Shown: in pieces, positions 2,756 to 43,479 of the stretch
How the letters are laid out: each line of letters opens with the position of its first letter
How positions within the stretch are numbered: the first letter of the stretch is position 1
Virus record (IMG/VR): IMGVR_UViG_3300032081_000311
Span: 1-43,479 of that record
From: a virus
Strand: one strand, 5' to 3'
DNA length: 43,479 bases
Program-made: the position numbers and the translations under genes
The notes under the pieces: generated by a model
What the model was told of the DNA's origin: nothing
What the model saw: the letters and a program-made list of their open reading frames with translations, nothing else
Database searches by the model: none

Positions 2756-3000
2756 AAGTCCTCCTTATAATCGAAACCTTCTAACATAGCATCGGTTATT
2801 TTTTCATAATCGATAACGTCATCGGCTTCTAATGTATCAAATAATAATGCTATACCCCTTTCGACTCTATTACGATCCATACGTGCTAAATATTCTTCAG
2901 ACGTTTGATCAGCTATATAAGGCTCTAAAGCAATAGCGATCGTCGCAACAGCTCGTTCTATAGGGTTTAAATCAAACTTGGGTTTAGCTTTTCGTGGCAT
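2752..3000 (-). CDS. Hypothetical protein, 82 aa
   Basis: I place the start at ATG 3000 (MPRKAKPKFDLN) because GAAGG lies five bases upstream; an in-frame GTG at 3006 is the alternative. The product has a basic N-terminus and an acidic, helical remainder (IERAVATIAIALEPYIADQ near residues 15-33). It overlaps the upstream gene by 17 bases. No family recognised. Confidence 0.7.
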   Translation of the reverse strand: MPRKAKPKFDLNPIERAVATIAIALEPYIADQTSEEYLARMDRNRVERGIALLFDTLEADDVIDYEKITDAMLEGFDYKEDL

Positions 3001-3235
3001 CTTCACCTTCTTTTTTGAAACGGTTAATCATCGTATCGAAGATATCGTTAATCGCAACAGGTTCTTTTGTTTTGATTACGTTAGCTTCGACCTCGAGTTT
3101 TTTAATACGTTGTATCAACATATTATTCACATCGAGTTGTGCTTGCATAAACTCCTGTGTTTTACGTTGCGTATCAACTAATAAATCGAGACTACGTGTA
3201 AGCGTATCGATCATTTGCATTATTTCTTTATCCAT
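2984..3235 (-). CDS. Coiled-coil hypothetical protein, 83 aa
   Basis: The ATG at 3235 follows AAAGGAGAAATAT, the operon-head ribosome-binding site. The product, MDKEIMQMIDTLTRSLDLL onwards, looks largely alpha-helical with coiled-coil spacing over residues 1-55. It is the first protein-coding gene downstream of the structured RNA block at 3250-3761, so its leader is about 500 bases if the transcript is continuous from promoter P3. Function unknown. Confidence 0.75.
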   Translation of the reverse strand: MDKEIMQMIDTLTRSLDLLVDTQRKTQEFMQAQLDVNNMLIQRIKKLEVEANVIKTKEPVAINDIFDTMINRFKKEGEDATKS

Positions 3236-3249
3236 ATATTTCTCCTTTC

Positions 3250-3761
3250 TTATTAATAAATGGATGAGTTTATTTTATTCTCAAAACTCATACCTGCTAA
3301 AGTAGAGAGCAATTAAAGTGAGGGAACAATGTGCATCGCAGGTGCGACCTGCTTTGACTATTTGATTACACACGCTAGTCAGGATTTTTCTGGTGTAACC
3401 CTCTATCCACATGGAACTGTAAAAAGTGTGGCGATGAGAGGAACTCGGTTTCCACATATACCTCCGTTCATCCTAACCGACTCGAAAGTACAGGCTTTTA
3501 CAAGGATCGGGACATCACCACATTGAAGGTCTAGTAGTTTTGAGTCACTTCTCGGGATAACCTTCTCGCACCCGATGGCTGACTGGTTGTGGCTTGAGTA
3601 TTTAACAAGTCTCATTTAACTGACCTCGTGAATCTTGTCAGCACCACGTTTTGTGCCAGAGAGGTGAGCGGTCTAACTAAAAAACTCCGCTCGGTATCAT
3701 TATTTAATGGAGTAATCATATGAATCTCTCTGGACTTATCAAACTTGTTCTAGTAAACATA
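3250..3761 (-). ncRNA. Candidate structured RNA or long structured 5' leader
   Basis: No convincing gene lies in this roughly 500-base gap. It is richer in G+C (about 45% over 3301-3720 by hand count) than nearby genes. It begins at the predicted start site of promoter P3 (near 3760). On the minus strand it can form nested helices: 3741-3749 with 3604-3612 (9 bp, one G-U) closing a multibranch region; 3726-3733 with 3656-3663 (8 bp); 3687-3692 with 3666-3671 (6 GC-rich bp); 3637-3641 with 3620-3624. Further 3' are a possible pseudoknot (3588-3592 with 3518-3522, interleaved with 3571-3576 and 3506-3511), a 6-bp helix 3475-3480 with 3445-3450, a 6-bp hairpin at 3338-3352 and an 8-bp hairpin at 3264-3291. 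It could be a free ncRNA or a regulatory leader of the gene at 2984-3235. I do not recognise a known class. Confidence 0.6.
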
Positions 3762-3766
3762 CTTAT

Positions 3767-3796
3767 AGTATAAAGTACGAAAGTTAGCAAAGTAAA
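3767..3796 (-). promoter_or_regulatory. Early promoter P3
   Basis: On the minus strand: TAGTGCTTTACTTTGC containing -35 TTTACT, an 18-base spacer, then -10 TATACT. It directly follows the stop of the gene at 3803-3991 and points into the structured RNA block. The extended block matches P4-P7 closely. Confidence 0.8.
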
Positions 3797-3802
3797 GCAC
3801 TA

Positions 3803-3991
3803 TTAAGAACCCCTCATTCGTGCCATAGTTTTTGTTTTTCGATATATTGCACGACCGCACTTTGGGTCTAAAAAGATCGTAGGTAGTAAAGTACCAAACC
3901 GATCTTTTGTTTGTACGTGTTTAGCGTCTCGCCAATCAGCTCCACCTGTTGCTAACACTTTGCGTAATAATTTAGCTTTCTTTAAATTCAT
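3803..3991 (-). CDS. Small basic phage protein, 62 aa
   Basis: A small basic protein starting MNLKKAKLLRKVLATGG, with a C-terminal LDPKCGRAIYRKTKTMARM segment. This arrangement (NLKKAKxLR near the start, then a Pro-x-x-Gly-Arg-Ala-x-Tyr motif) is familiar from small phage proteins of unknown function. The ATG at 3991 overlaps the end of the upstream lipoprotein gene by 20 bases. It may bind nucleic acid given its charge, but no domain shows this. Confidence 0.7.
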   Translation of the reverse strand: MNLKKAKLLRKVLATGGADWRDAKHVQTKDRFGTLLPTIFLDPKCGRAIYRKTKTMARMRGS

Positions 3992-5170: not shown

Positions 5171-5199
5171 AGTATGCCTACGAAATACGTGAAAGTAAA
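5171..5199 (-). promoter_or_regulatory. Early promoter P4
   Basis: On the minus strand: TAGTGCTTTACTTTCAC containing -35 TTTACT, a 17-base spacer, then -10 CATACT. It drives the histone-like gene at 4742-5113. The extended block is the same as at P3, P5 and P6. Confidence 0.8.
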
Positions 5200-5231
5200 G
5201 CACTATAACGAGTACCTCATAGGCAGACTGT

Positions 5232-6831: not shown

Positions 6832-6860
6832 ATTATAGGTACGAAAACTACGAAAGTAAA
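6832..6860 (-). promoter_or_regulatory. Early promoter P5, best match
   Basis: On the minus strand: GTTAGTGCTTTACTTTCG containing -35 TTTACT, a 17-base spacer and a perfect -10 TATAAT. The -35 block lies inside the last codons and stop of the nuclease gene at 6848-7237, so promoter and coding sequence share bases. Confidence 0.9.
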
Positions 6861-7237
6861 GCACTAACAAGAGCGTCCCAATCGTAAGGAATCGTAAGAG
6901 TCACAAGAGCTTTTGATTTATAACCAGTCTTAACGAGGTCTTGAATACCTGTAAGACTGTCGATATGGTAGAGCTTAATCTCATCGTTTTTACGAGCCAT
7001 AACGAAAACTTGACCACCAAACGATGCACGTTTCGCTAACCACGATATTTGCATAGGTCGTAGAGTAAGAGCATTACCTGAATGTATTTCTTTGAGCTCG
7101 ATCCAGAACTCTTTACCTTTGGCACAACCGTTAACGTCAGGAACACCTGCTCCTGTCATACCTGTTTCAATTCGTTGTAAATGTATTTCAGGCAGATTTG
7201 ATCTTAACAAGAGCCATAAATTTTTTTCTTTCGCCAT
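6848..7237 (-). CDS. PD-(D/E)XK / VRR-NUC-like endonuclease, 129 aa
   Basis: A small nuclease-like protein. GVPDVNG (Asp34), FWIELKE (Glu47 and Lys49) and the downstream RPMQISWL (Gln63) form the expected D...ExK...Q pattern of the PD-(D/E)XK superfamily, close to VRR-NUC and Holliday-resolvase-like phage nucleases. Such enzymes process branched or damaged DNA during replication and recombination. The start overlaps the upstream gene by 50 bases and has a weak ribosome-binding site, but the N-terminal helix (LWLLLRSNLPEIHLQRIETG) belongs to the fold. Its last codons coincide with promoter P5. Confidence 0.75.
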   Translation of the reverse strand: MAKEKNLWLLLRSNLPEIHLQRIETGMTGAGVPDVNGCAKGKEFWIELKEIHSGNALTLRPMQISWLAKRASFGGQVFVMARKNDEIKLYHIDSLTGIQDLVKTGYKSKALVTLTIPYDWDALVSALLS

Positions 7238-7909: not shown

Positions 7910-7938
7910 AATATAAAAGGCAAAGTTTAGAAAGTAAA
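7910..7938 (-). promoter_or_regulatory. Early promoter P6
   Basis: On the minus strand: CAGTGCTTTACTTTC containing -35 TTTACT, a 17-base spacer, then -10 TATATT. The predicted start site (about 7902-7903) is next to the ATG at 7901. It drives the zinc-knuckle and nuclease genes. Confidence 0.8.
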
Positions 7939-7946
7939 GCACTGTA

Positions 7947-14426: not shown

Positions 14427-14456
14427 TTTATACTTTACTTTTATGTGCAAAGTAAA
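14427..14456 (-). promoter_or_regulatory. Early promoter P7
   Basis: On the minus strand: AAGTGCTTTACTTTGC containing -35 TTTACT, an 18-base spacer, then -10 TATAAA. It follows the helicase stop directly and drives the long operon from 14390 to 7947 (modification genes, polymerase, HTH protein). Confidence 0.8.
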
Positions 14457-14462
14457 GCACTT

Positions 14463-20063: not shown

Positions 20064-21506
20064 ATGCAGTATAAGTTTAAAACCAAGCCTTATGAGCATC
20101 AGCTTGAGGCATTAAAAAGATCATGGAATAAGCGTGAATATGCTTATTTTATGGAAATGGGTACAGGTAAATCTAAAGTACTTATAGACAATATCGCACT
20201 TTTATATGATAAAGGTGGGATAAACGCGGCTATCATTGTAGCACCCAAAGGGGTCTATCGGAACTGGTCTGGAAAAGAAATACCTGCTCATATGCCTGAC
20301 CACGTAGAACGAGAAGTTGGTGTATGGAATCCCGCACCTACGGTAAAACAAAAAGCAGAACTAATGAAGTTGTTCGAAGTTTCGCATGAACTTAAAATAT
20401 TAATTATTAATGTCGAAGCTTTTAGCACTAAAAAAGGTGTAGCTTTTGTTGAGAAGTTTATACTCGCTCACAATGCACTGATCGCGGTTGATGAATCTAC
20501 GACTATTAAGAACCCTAAAGCACAACGAACTAAGAACTTATTAAAGTTAGCTCTTAATACCAAGTACCGTAGAATCCTTACAGGTTTTCCCGTAACGCAA
20601 TCACCGTTAGATTTATATAGCCAAAGTGCATTCTTATCTACACAGTTATTAGGTTACTCATCGTTCTATTCATTTCAAAACAGGTATGCAAAAGTTATTA
20701 ATAGAAGTATGGGACAACGAACTTTTAGACAGGTGGTCGGTTATCAAAACTTAGAAGAACTTACAGAAAATGTAAATGAGTTCTCTTACAGAGTGCTAAA
20801 GAAAGAATGTTTAGACTTGCCCGATAAAGTATATCAACGCAGAGAAGTTGAACTAACGCCTGAACAAAAGAAAGTTTATAAACAATTAAAAGATTATGCT
20901 ATCGCACAATTAGAATCTAGTGAATTAGTAAGTGTTACTTCTGTTCTAACACAGATTCTTAGGCTACACCAAGTTGTTTGTGGTTTTGTTAAACACGATC
21001 AAGGTGATGAAGTAGAAATTAAAAGCAATCGTTTAGATAGTTTATTAGATGTATTAGCAGAAACTCAAGGTAAAGTTATTATATGGGCTAATTATCAATA
21101 CGATATCAAACGTATCTTAAAAACATTACAAGATACCGTGGGTACAGAAGCAGTAACAACTTACTACGGTGAAACGTTAGATGAAGATAGACAACAAATC
21201 ATTAAATCATTTCAAGATCCTGACTCACCCCTTACCTATTTAATTAGTAATGTGCAAACAGGTGGTTATGGTATTACGCTGACCGAAGCAAGTACCGTGA
21301 TTTATTATTCTAATAATTACGATTTAGAAAAACGTTTACAATCAGAAGATAGGGCTCATCGTATAGGTCAAACAAATAAAGTTACCTATATTGATTTAGT
21401 TGCTAAAGGCACGGTTGATGAAAAGATCGTAAAAGCTCTTAGAAATAAACTTGACCTAGCACAAGAAGTACTGGGTGATGAAAAGTGGAAAGACTGGATC
21501 GATTAA
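20064..21506 (+). CDS. SNF2-type superfamily 2 helicase/translocase, 480 aa
   Basis: The only plus-strand gene. Motifs: EMGTGKSKVL (Walker A, Gly33-Ser37), VAPKGVYRNW (Ia), AVDESTTIKN with DEST at 143-146 (motif II), RRILTGFP (III), a second RecA domain from about residue 310, and QSEDRAHRIGQ (VI). These are the marks of compact SNF2-family ATPases, which translocate on double-stranded DNA and remodel protein-DNA complexes. Marine phages often encode one. It may help replication-fork reversal or strip host proteins. Its stop codon overlaps that of the convergent gene at 21503. Confidence 0.92.
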   Translation: MQYKFKTKPYEHQLEALKRSWNKREYAYFMEMGTGKSKVLIDNIALLYDKGGINAAIIVAPKGVYRNWSGKEIPAHMPDHVEREVGVWNPAPTVKQKAELMKLFEVSHELKILIINVEAFSTKKGVAFVEKFILAHNALIAVDESTTIKNPKAQRTKNLLKLALNTKYRRILTGFPVTQSPLDLYSQSAFLSTQLLGYSSFYSFQNRYAKVINRSMGQRTFRQVVGYQNLEELTENVNEFSYRVLKKECLDLPDKVYQRREVELTPEQKKVYKQLKDYAIAQLESSELVSVTSVLTQILRLHQVVCGFVKHDQGDEVEIKSNRLDSLLDVLAETQGKVIIWANYQYDIKRILKTLQDTVGTEAVTTYYGETLDEDRQQIIKSFQDPDSPLTYLISNVQTGGYGITLTEASTVIYYSNNYDLEKRLQSEDRAHRIGQTNKVTYIDLVAKGTVDEKIVKALRNKLDLAQEVLGDEKWKDWID

Positions 21507-41113: not shown

Positions 41114-43479
41114 TTAGCCTTCTAAGGCTTCTATTCTTGTTGTTAAAGCATCTATTTTATCATCTGCTTCTTGTAAAGCTTTAATTAATGGCATAACAAA
41201 TTGACCATAATCTAGTGTTTGCATGCCATCAGGTTCTTGACCCCAACCATTAAATTTTTCAGCATCTACACCTAAATTGTCTAAGGCTGCTTTAACCTCT
41301 TGAGCCAACATACCTGTTTGCCAAGTGGTTATTTTTGCTTCTGTTTCGTGTGGTTGGTGGGTATCCCATTCTTCAGGAACATCACAAGGAGCTTTAATGT
41401 GGTAATTTACTGTTCTTAGTTGATTAATAAAATCTAAACCCAAAGGATGGTCTGTAATATCCTTTTTCTTGCGTTCATCAGAACCAGTGGTAAAACTAGA
41501 ACCCCCATAAGAAAGTCTTGACCAGTCAGTGCCACTTCTACCAAAAGTTATGGCGTAATCTGCTGTACCAGTATCTCCGTTATTATAACCAATGTGTCCT
41601 CTTACACTTCCTGTGGCTGAAGTCCGCATAGCATACCCAATAGCCAGATTTCCCGTACCAGTTGTTGTGTTATCCCCAGCAAGAGTACCAATAAAAGTGT
41701 TTAATGAACCAGTAGTAACAGAACCACCAGCCGCATATCCAACTGCTGTGTTGCTATTTACTGTAGCCATAGCATCCAAAGCCTGTGTACCAATTGCTGT
41801 ATTGTAACTTCCAGTGGTAATATCTCCACCTGCTAAGTAACCAAGGGTTGTATTGTAATTTCCTGTGGTTGTATTTACAGAAGAACTTTTACCAACTGCG
41901 GTGTTATAAGCTCCTGTAGTATTTTCAAAAAGTGCTGCGTGTCCCACCGCAGTGTTTGCTGTGGAAGTTGTAGAATCATATAAGGCTGATGCACCAACAG
42001 CTGTATTATTTTCACCAGTTGTGTTTGCGGTAAGTGCGGAGATACCAACTGCTGTACAGTTTGAGGCGGTGGTGTTAGCATCTAAAGCACCTTTACCAAC
42101 TGCGGTGTTACTTGCTCCTGTAGTATTTGCAATCATTGCTTGATGTCCTACCGCAGTATTAGAAGCACCAGTTGTATTGACTCGTAATGCCATACGACCA
42201 ACTGCTGTGTTATTAGATGCTGTGGTATTGGCTGATAGAGCTGAAGTACCTACAGCAGTGTTTTCTGAACCTGTGGTGTTTGCATCTCCTGCTAAAGCAC
42301 CCACTGCAACATTTTCTGTACCTGTGGTGTTTGCTAGTAAAGCCTGATGACCCACTGCTGTATTGTTATCTGCTGTGGTGTTGGCATCTAAAGCTTGTAC
42401 TCCAATAGCAACATTATTATCTCCTTCCGTATTAGCTTCTAAAGAATTAACACCAAGCCCTACATTACTACCACCTGTGGTATTGTTTATTAGTGAGGTT
42501 CTGCCGATAGCAGTATTATTAGCCCCTGTGGTGTTTGCTGTTAAAGCACCTTTACCAACTGCTGTGTTGGAAGATGCTGTCGTATTATTCCTCAATGCAT
42601 CAGCTCCAACTGCTGTATTTTCAGCACCAGTTGTGTTTGCTGATAAAGCAACATCACCAATAGCTGTGTTGTTAGAAGCAGTGGTGTTGGCATCTAAGGC
42701 ATCAGCTCCAACTGCTACATTGTCTGTACCAGTGGTGTTTGCTCCTAGTGCATTAGCACCTATACCAACATTGTTAGAAGCTGTGGTATTGGCATCTAAT
42801 GCTGTAACTCCAATCGCAACATTCCCTGCACCTGTGGTGTTAGCATCTAAAGCAGCATAACCAATTGCGATGTTGTTGTTTGCTGTGGTGTTATTATCTA
42901 AAGCATTAGCACCCAAGGCTACGTTAAATGCACCAGTTGTATTTGCTGATAAAGAAGCGTAACCAACTGCTGTGTTGTTATTTGCTGTTGTATTAGCATC
43001 TAAGGCTAAAGCACCTAATGCTACGTTGCTTGTGCCTGTTGTGTTTAAATATAGAGCTTGAAAACCCACTCCTGTGTTGTTATCTGCTGTTGTATTGGTA
43101 CTTAAAGCAAGTCCCCCAACGGCTGTATTATAATCACCTGTAGTACTGGCATCTAAAGTAGCATAACCTAACGCAGTATTACGAGTACCAGTTGTATTTG
43201 CTAGTAAAGCATTTCTACCAACAGCAGTGTTACCACTTGCAGTGGTACTTAAACCTAATGCACCTGTACCTACTGCTGTATTTTCATCACCACTTGTTAA
43301 AGCTGCAAAAACACCTACACCTAAACCTGTATTATAGTTAGCTGCATCAATTGTGCCTGTGGTTGTGTCTCCAATCATTATTGAGGATGTGCCAAAGGTT
43401 TTACTTGCTATACCGTTATAAGTAGCTGCTGTTGAAGCTCCTGTAATTGTTAAATCTCCACCTACTGAAGCATCATCTG
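41114..43479 (-). CDS. Tail fibre with YadA-like repeats and S74 chaperone domain, 5'-truncated
   Basis: The frame is open to the right edge (upstream of an internal ATG at 43378 it reads DDASVGGDLTITGASTAATY and on), so the true start lies outside. Then about 34 units of 17 residues with the pattern N-T-A-V-G-x-x-A-L-x-A-N-T-T form a left-handed beta-roll or similar stalk, as in YadA-head-type repeats. The C-terminus has the S74 intramolecular chaperone: SDERKKKDI (catalytic Ser and Lys), then GMLAQEVKAALDNL and a trimeric coiled-coil end. It should trimerise, self-cleave and bind host receptors. Confidence 0.9.
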   Translation of the reverse strand, partial: DDASVGGDLTITGASTAATYNGIASKTFGTSSIMIGDTTTGTIDAANYNTGLGVGVFAALTSGDENTAVGTGALGLSTTASGNTAVGRNALLANTTGTRNTALGYATLDASTTGDYNTAVGGLALSTNTTADNNTGVGFQALYLNTTGTSNVALGALALDANTTANNNTAVGYASLSANTTGAFNVALGANALDNNTTANNNIAIGYAALDANTTGAGNVAIGVTALDANTTASNNVGIGANALGANTTGTDNVAVGADALDANTTASNNTAIGDVALSANTTGAENTAVGADALRNNTTASSNTAVGKGALTANTTGANNTAIGRTSLINNTTGGSNVGLGVNSLEANTEGDNNVAIGVQALDANTTADNNTAVGHQALLANTTGTENVAVGALAGDANTTGSENTAVGTSALSANTTASNNTAVGRMALRVNTTGASNTAVGHQAMIANTTGASNTAVGKGALDANTTASNCTAVGISALTANTTGENNTAVGASALYDSTTSTANTAVGHAALFENTTGAYNTAVGKSSSVNTTTGNYNTTLGYLAGGDITTGSYNTAIGTQALDAMATVNSNTAVGYAAGGSVTTGSLNTFIGTLAGDNTTTGTGNLAIGYAMRTSATGSVRGHIGYNNGDTGTADYAITFGRSGTDWSRLSYGGSSFTTGSDERKKKDITDHPLGLDFINQLRTVNYHIKAPCDVPEEWDTHQPHETEAKITTWQTGMLAQEVKAALDNLGVDAEKFNGWGQEPDGMQTLDYGQFVMPLIKALQEADDKIDALTTRIEALEG
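41600..43333. repeat. 51-bp tandem repeat array in the tail-fibre gene
   Basis: About 34 units of 51 bp, diverged but in register, encode the 17-residue repeat. In units 4-15 the ends alternate strictly between an Ala and a Gly form (NTTA / NTTG), suggesting duplication in steps of two units (102 bp). Confidence 0.85.

Follow-up and report, generated by a model that had tools for sequence, protein, structure and literature searches.

A modular array of structured RNA units on the minus strand of a viral contig, drawn from a pool common to several marine phage groups

Structured RNA encoded on the minus strand between two small genes of a viral contig was found to be organized as a modular array of separate RNA units, a conclusion that is well supported by the comparison of related loci, and the array was shown to be one of many arrangements of a pool of units common to several marine phage groups. 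The window, i.e. the whole stretch of DNA that was analysed (43,479 nucleotides), is the 43.5-kb virus contig IMGVR_UViG_3300032081_000311, positions 1 to 43,479. It encodes a family-A DNA polymerase, a UvrD-like helicase, a thymidylate synthase and a DUF932 protein, and the nearest annotated polymerases were those of phage 023Pt_psg01 (∼53% identity) and pelagiphage HTVC023P (48%). All listed gene-like proteins of at least 100 aa were encoded on the minus strand except for one SNF2-like helicase, whose gene (20064-21506, plus strand) runs opposite to the other window genes. A 754-aa protein (41114-43378, minus strand), composed of many near-identical NTAVG repeats and a different C-terminal part, is probably a tail fibre or spike.

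As given in a preliminary description of this DNA, the block is gene-free and richer in G+C than its surroundings. It is bounded by the end of a 62-aa gene (3803-3991), which adjoins the array and is conserved in close relatives, and by an 83-aa gene (2984-3235), the first gene 3' of the array, both on the minus strand; the G+C content was 41% for positions 3250-3761 and 45% for 3320-3735, as compared with 37% in the flanks. The ribosome-binding site and start codon of the 83-aa gene lie at 3233-3250 (minus strand). Its product is coiled-coil-like, and a weak match to a CARF model (E 0.003), the only one of its kind, is probably coiled-coil noise. The proteins neighbouring the array gave no toxin match in Pfam, PHROG or PADLOC, and no toxin or clear defence gene was found adjoining it.

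A sigma-70-like promoter on the plus strand had been proposed to open the block. Nothing of the kind was detected near 3250, and the promoter-like site adjoining the block lies at its opposite end on the minus strand (3796-3767). The predicted promoter (3767-3800, minus strand) consists of the box GTGCTTTACTTT at 3789-3800 and the −10 hexamer TATACT at 3767-3772, and reads into the array. Five exact copies of GTGCTTTACTTT were detected in the window, with 0.4 expected (up to one mismatch), every one of them on the minus strand and preceding a gene of that strand (3789-3800, 5192-5203, 6853-6864, 7931-7942 and 14449-14460). The box was also present in relatives, and TATAAT or TATACT was kept directly upstream of the first unit in these. 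GTGCTTTACTTT is therefore best described as a putative phage-wide early promoter element. The distance from the box to the next start codon was 29, 51, 58 and 63 nt for four of the copies, whose leaders were without array-like structure, and 553 nt for the copy at 3789-3800. The array therefore represents an insertion of ∼500 nt between an early-type promoter and an ordinary ribosome site. Transcription would start from the site at 3767-3800, and the 3260-3760 gap would then constitute a 5' leader on the minus strand, extending from the promoter to the ribosome site of the 83-aa gene.

Read in gene direction, the window chain comprises six different units in the order T-D-C-B-A-Z, all on the minus strand. 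Unit T (3655-3735) is a constant first hairpin with the outer stem CCAGAGAG/CTCTCTGG, the inner stem GAGCGG/CCGCTC and a U-rich loop; it occupied the same position throughout the clade of the window, was the sole unit in L020-L023, and the pairing in its stem was kept as the sequence changed (117 Watson-Crick, 7 GU and 4 AC cells). In relatives (L017, L106) the U-rich loop of T (UUUUUAUAGUUU) is complementary to AAAACUAUA near the RNA 5' end, the window positions of loop and partner being 3666-3692 and about 3746-3760 (minus strand), and a loop-loop contact is possible. Unit D (3589-3647), a possible pseudoknot closed by GUGGU/GCCAC, was also encountered beside other neighbours in L017 and L025. 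Unit C (3525-3584) is an H-type pseudoknot formed by AGUCA/UGACU, UCGGG/CCCGA and the pseudoknot helix GAAGGU/ACCUUC. Unit B (3428-3521), a member of the B/E family, is a three-way junction of P1, P3 and P2 with the putative pseudoknot GGUY/AACC, and unit A (3320-3417) combines P1 (GAGGG/CCCUC), P2 (GACUA/UAGUC) and P3 (GCAGG/CCUGC) with the pseudoknot UUACAC/GUGUAA. Unit Z (3262-3312) is the last hairpin (AUGAGUUU/AAACUCAU) and was also found in another phage group beside a B/E unit (L150/L184), with one sense-strand G.U change. Across all loci the units measured about 35-160 nt and several carried pseudoknots; a compact one of ∼36 nt, unit G (GAUAGC/GCUAUC with GGAA/UUCC; L101, L122 and L037), has the size of the ToxI antitoxin RNA. 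Three covariance models were built (one for A and two rounds for B/E) and patterns were used for the other units; units T, D, F, G, I, J, K, M, N, P, X and Z were defined by recurrence, with a stem tally for T only.

Units A, C and B/E are conserved structured RNAs, their covarying pairs exceeding both shuffled and slid controls. In unit A (15 sequences), 99.0% of the cells were paired, with 32 two-sided changes against 11.0 ± 2.7 in shuffled alignments and a covariation of 0.294 against 0.116 when shuffled and at most 0.108 in slid versions. Its consensus comprises P1 GRGGG/CCCYC, P2 GACUA/UAGUC, a variable P3 and the pseudoknot UURCAC/GUGUAA; the changes fall in P1 and P3, P2 and most of the pseudoknot being invariant and so outside the covariation support. 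The unit A covariance model matched the window at 3319-3421 (minus strand) with 111.6 bits. In unit C (11 sequences), seven of the 16 pairs had changed on both sides, in all three helices including the pseudoknot (variants GAAGGU/ACCUUC, GAGAGU/ACUCUC, GGAAGU/ACUUCC and GAGGGU/ACCCUC), with 17 two-sided cells against 5.1 and a covariation of 0.293 against 0.131 in shuffled alignments, whereas its loops were nearly invariant. For the B/E family (36 distinct sequences; P1, P3 and P2), compensatory changes were present in all 19 pairs (144 cells against 38.3 ± 5.1) and covariation reached 0.618 against 0.208 shuffled and at most 0.077 slid, in an alignment (A6) that was model-guided and is hence biased towards structure. 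The unfitted alignment A5 gave a covariation of 0.230 against 0.116 and nine pairs changing on both sides; the GGUY/AACC pseudoknot is constant in A5 and was proposed from sequence alone. Model R2, built without any B sequence, located unit B of the window at the expected borders (3428-3522, minus strand; 20.2 bits, E 0.076), while the value of 8e-11 obtained with model R3 is not independent, as R3 includes B sequences. Long unpaired stretches were likewise nearly invariant within A, C and B/E.

The significance of the structure derives from covariation and not from folding energy. Whole-block minimum-energy folding was rejected as proof of structure, since z-scores of −1.23 (plus) and −0.75 (minus) are not exceptional, 12 of 100 plus-strand and 25 of 100 minus-strand shuffles folding at least as well; the statement that the nested complementarity was unlikely by chance thus finds no backing in energy. 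The 9-bp helix named in the preliminary description (3604-3612 with 3741-3749) needs one A.C mismatch on the plus strand, joins unit D with the start of T, which are exchanged separately, and is lost in relatives. Covarying pairs were found among homologues in units A, C and B/E. An ACCTGC arm had been assigned to 3338-3343 with two GCAGGT partners; these positions read GCAGGT, present as a single copy, and it is ACCTGC that occurs twice (3292, 3347), the complementary pair 3338/3347 being hairpin P3 of unit A.

The plus strand had been taken as the transcribed one. Where helix positions varied, the minus strand had G.U and the plus strand A.C, with minus-strand G.U to A.C cells of 12:1 in unit A, 25:2 in B/E and 7:4 in T; the cells are not independent events, and at the level of pairs the B/E ratio is 9 to 1. 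A DNA element would show no preference for G.U, and the large excess of G.U over A.C therefore indicates that the array acts as minus-strand RNA. An assignment of the plus strand as sense, from an A-rich loop, was overturned by these counts and by the promoter. The sense of unit A was that of the upstream gene in every context examined. Folding energy does not favour the minus strand, and A and T fold slightly better as antisense.

Hence one long nested RNA with its own early promoter on the plus strand gives way to separate small domains on the minus strand with a minus-strand promoter. Structured RNA is nonetheless present, as covariation and pseudoknots conserved across evolution attest: the hint of structure in the preliminary description was right and most of its details were wrong. 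Its suggestion of an undescribed phage ncRNA is supported by the strong covariation, by the absence of matches in Rfam 15 and by the short reading frames of the block, which are not conserved because the units that they span are deleted, swapped or reordered in relatives.

The Rfam search that had been recommended yielded no Rfam 15 match at the gathering score in the window and 23 related loci, and nothing at a permissive threshold (best sub-threshold match E 4.5); no riboswitch aptamer, catalytic RNA or antitoxin RNA family of Rfam 15 matched any unit. ARAGORN detected no tRNA or tmRNA in the window or in 15 related loci. When the block and the arrays of two other phage groups were compared by BLAST with 50,697 phage records, no match was returned, and a search of 72,556 plasmids was equally negative. 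A B/E covariance search of 12 genomes from marine or related phages, HMO-2011 and HTVC pelagiphages among them, gave nothing convincing (one match, E 0.39). In a pattern scan of 84,980 bacterial and archaeal genomes unit C was absent, and 15 matches to the 15-base core of unit A were discarded as they were without the rest of the unit and had no score with the A model. None was found in 385 Alphaproteobacteria (A and B/E) and 369 Gammaproteobacteria (B/E), which, with strict filters and no positive control, is only weak evidence that the units are absent there. No further contigs came from relaxed patterns for A and C.

The modular nature of the array became evident from 80 related loci fetched via the DUF932 protein. 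In close relatives the flanking genes were mostly 90-100% identical, yet the block did not persist intact: sharply bounded pieces were present, absent or replaced, and where the neighbour genes were 95-100% identical, replacement had affected either single units or the entire array. In L005 both edges were kept at 98% and everything between them was replaced. Close relatives carried the chains T-B-A, T-B, T-C-B, T-B-C-I, T-B-J, T-X, T-X-J and T-I, and more distant ones T-C-E, T-D-C-E, T-C-E-A, T-E-A, T-C-F-E, T-G-C-F-E and T-G-F-E. Altogether ∼40 unit orders were seen, including both B-C and C-B, A-J and J-A, and C-E and E-C, in a tally whose single-'A' row takes in chance bacterial 15-mers. 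The otherwise unrelated units B, D, E, F, I and X have in common a GUGG...CCAC closing helix (GUGUGG...CCACAC in E). These common ends amount to short DNA homology flanking different units and may therefore explain the clean swaps; units would accordingly be exchanged via their ends. A smaller piece, CCUAGAUUARAUUCGGGG, was inserted inside B/E and I units (L011, L008, L010, L082, L141, L150, L154, L169 and L174), as if small helices were swapped within units too. In L109, repeated hairpin copies (GCAAGCGTGGTTCACTTGTGTGACGAAACGAACC) about 150-500 nt upstream of unit A were the only tandem repetition of one unit seen.

Pattern scans of IMG/VR revealed unit C in 22 contigs, A in 24, G in four, F in seven and the B/E core in 46, three of which look like chance. 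Many of the unit-bearing contigs belong to other phage groups. Protein comparison of 20 loci separated the groups {window, L017, L029, L045, L151}, {L109, L112, L118, L119}, {L158, L164, L174} and {L143, L159}, with L104, L105, L154 and L169 also standing apart; across groups there were few or no homologous proteins, and the units were nevertheless common. Unit A lay beside different genes in L104, L105, L109, L112, L118 and L119, as did B/E in L143, L154, L164 and L169, all of them in groups with almost no proteins in common with the window. Units preceded different genes in L104, L105, L112 and L119, whereas in L107, L116 and L118 they were located between convergent genes and followed by a hairpin (AUAGCCCAAG...CUUGGGCUAU), with a U run after it in L118, that looks like an intrinsic terminator. 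One contig, IMGVR_UViG_3300046167_000092, carried two B/E-containing arrays ∼50 kb apart (L149 and L155).

Units are variably gained and lost between conserved genes and occur across unrelated phages, their loops are invariant, and they are not tied to a particular gene; taken together, these traits lead us to favour, with a confidence just short of even, a chain of RNAs that act in trans as decoys or binders of host (defence) factors and are exchanged as units. This agrees with the host-directed role listed among the options of the preliminary description, and we arrive at it by inference. The host RNA polymerase would transcribe the chain early after infection, and the RNA would form the long leader of an operon of small genes; other phages would have their units in different early gaps between genes or before a terminator-like hairpin. 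Every unit would fold alone in the cell and act in trans. Its most likely action would be to bind and occupy a protein, a nuclease or a signalling molecule of the host, which plausibly belongs to a defence system, and the phage would gain or lose units as its hosts change. Since units are found ahead of genes that are unrelated, or between convergent ones, and T is alone in some loci, they appear to act apart from the neighbouring gene. Counting against this proposal are the negative searches for a known antitoxin RNA, an Rfam family and an adjoining toxin or clear defence gene. In addition, the array in the clade of the window is always in the leader of the same gene, and there it may have a role in cis.

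That constant position, ending 10-30 nt before the ribosome site of the 83-aa gene in relatives, is what a tandem cis-regulatory leader would predict, in which riboswitch- or thermometer-like units adjust how the early operon downstream is translated or transcribed; pseudoknotted units whose loops are conserved resemble aptamers, and riboswitches are used by marine phages (PMC9004378). We nevertheless regard this as doubtful, since before the same gene the units are interchangeable, in any order, or missing save for T, no common expression platform was seen and no Rfam riboswitch matched. A riboswitch class is tied to related downstream genes, whereas the genes that follow unit A are unrelated, and in places the unit is flanked by convergent ones; a riboswitch-like leader, as had also been suggested, is thus possible for single units but fits poorly. 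Many different folds at one site behind a strong promoter, several of them compact pseudoknots, with the T hairpin constant near the 5' end, could instead reflect protection or maturation of the early transcript by exonuclease-blocking pseudoknots or RNase sites, for which any good fold suffices. However, the near-invariant unpaired stretches of A, C and B/E exceed the needs of a generic obstacle and the short leaders of the other four like promoters are devoid of such structure, which makes this explanation unlikely.

Compact pseudoknotted folds of several helices, in which many loop bases are invariant (A, C and B/E) and which are independent of neighbouring genes, would also suit small self-cleaving ribozymes or other catalytic RNAs in series that excise themselves from the transcript, a decidedly improbable reading given that no catalytic RNA family of Rfam 15 matched. 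An element acting as DNA, such as integron attC-like recombination sites, an origin of replication or a packaging site bearing inverted repeats, appears highly implausible: the cassette-like exchange bounded by GTGTGG/CCACAC inverted repeats and the hairpins in both strands speak for it, but the 12:1 and 25:2 excess of G.U over A.C points to single-stranded RNA from one strand, the orientation always follows transcription, and several different units and positions occur per phage with no integrase seen adjoining. Recombination of the attC type was set aside on account of this strand asymmetry.

Extending the proposal of trans-acting decoys or binders, marine phages might have in common a mobile set of structured RNA units, at least a dozen in number, arranged in early chains of free order, each neutralizing or occupying a different host factor; this broader idea we put forward only tentatively. 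Phage genomes are read mainly for proteins, and a pool of RNA domains of this kind would, if true, give viruses a novel means of building functions and would indicate numerous host targets in bacteria that are abundant in the ocean. With the A and B/E models and the patterns for the remaining units, any phage collection can be surveyed.

Several known systems resemble the array in part. Marine phages carry structured, pseudoknotted riboswitches, some of them in leaders, such as the glnA type in Melnitz and Mosig (PMC9004378) and wcaG/manA-type motifs (PMC2864571), whereas the array units are multiple, interchangeable, located before unrelated genes and a terminator-like hairpin, and without Rfam match. 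The pseudo-ToxI RNA of phage PhiTE imitates an antitoxin RNA of the host and evolves through recombination and the expansion of its repeats (PMC3475682); ToxI and pseudo-ToxI (PMC3475682, PMC5086642) are like the array in being phage-encoded non-coding RNAs with small pseudoknots at an expanding and recombining locus, and the trans-acting decoy function of pseudo-ToxI is what we propose by analogy for the array units. The H-type pseudoknot is found in unit C, where it covaries, those of A and B/E being of another type with pairs that barely vary, and unit G matches ToxI in size. In contrast to the tandem direct repeats of one ∼36-nt unit in ToxI, the array consists of many unrelated folds, and it has no toxN-like endoribonuclease or toxin gene nearby and no Rfam antitoxin match. 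GOLLD and ROOL, large ornate RNAs of unknown role in phages and mobile elements (PMC12286853), are likewise long and highly structured. They have single conserved architectures, whereas the array units, of 60-110 nt each, fold alone and occur in free order. In the anti-defence gene islands of phages, small units are variably gained and lost between conserved genes and are common to otherwise unrelated phages. The array shows the same variable gain and loss and the same sharing across phages, its units being RNA rather than proteins and their counter-defence role putative. Single structured RNAs without an assigned role are familiar. In the open-access literature searched, however, a freely reordered chain of different RNA domains from a pool common to several phage groups was not described.
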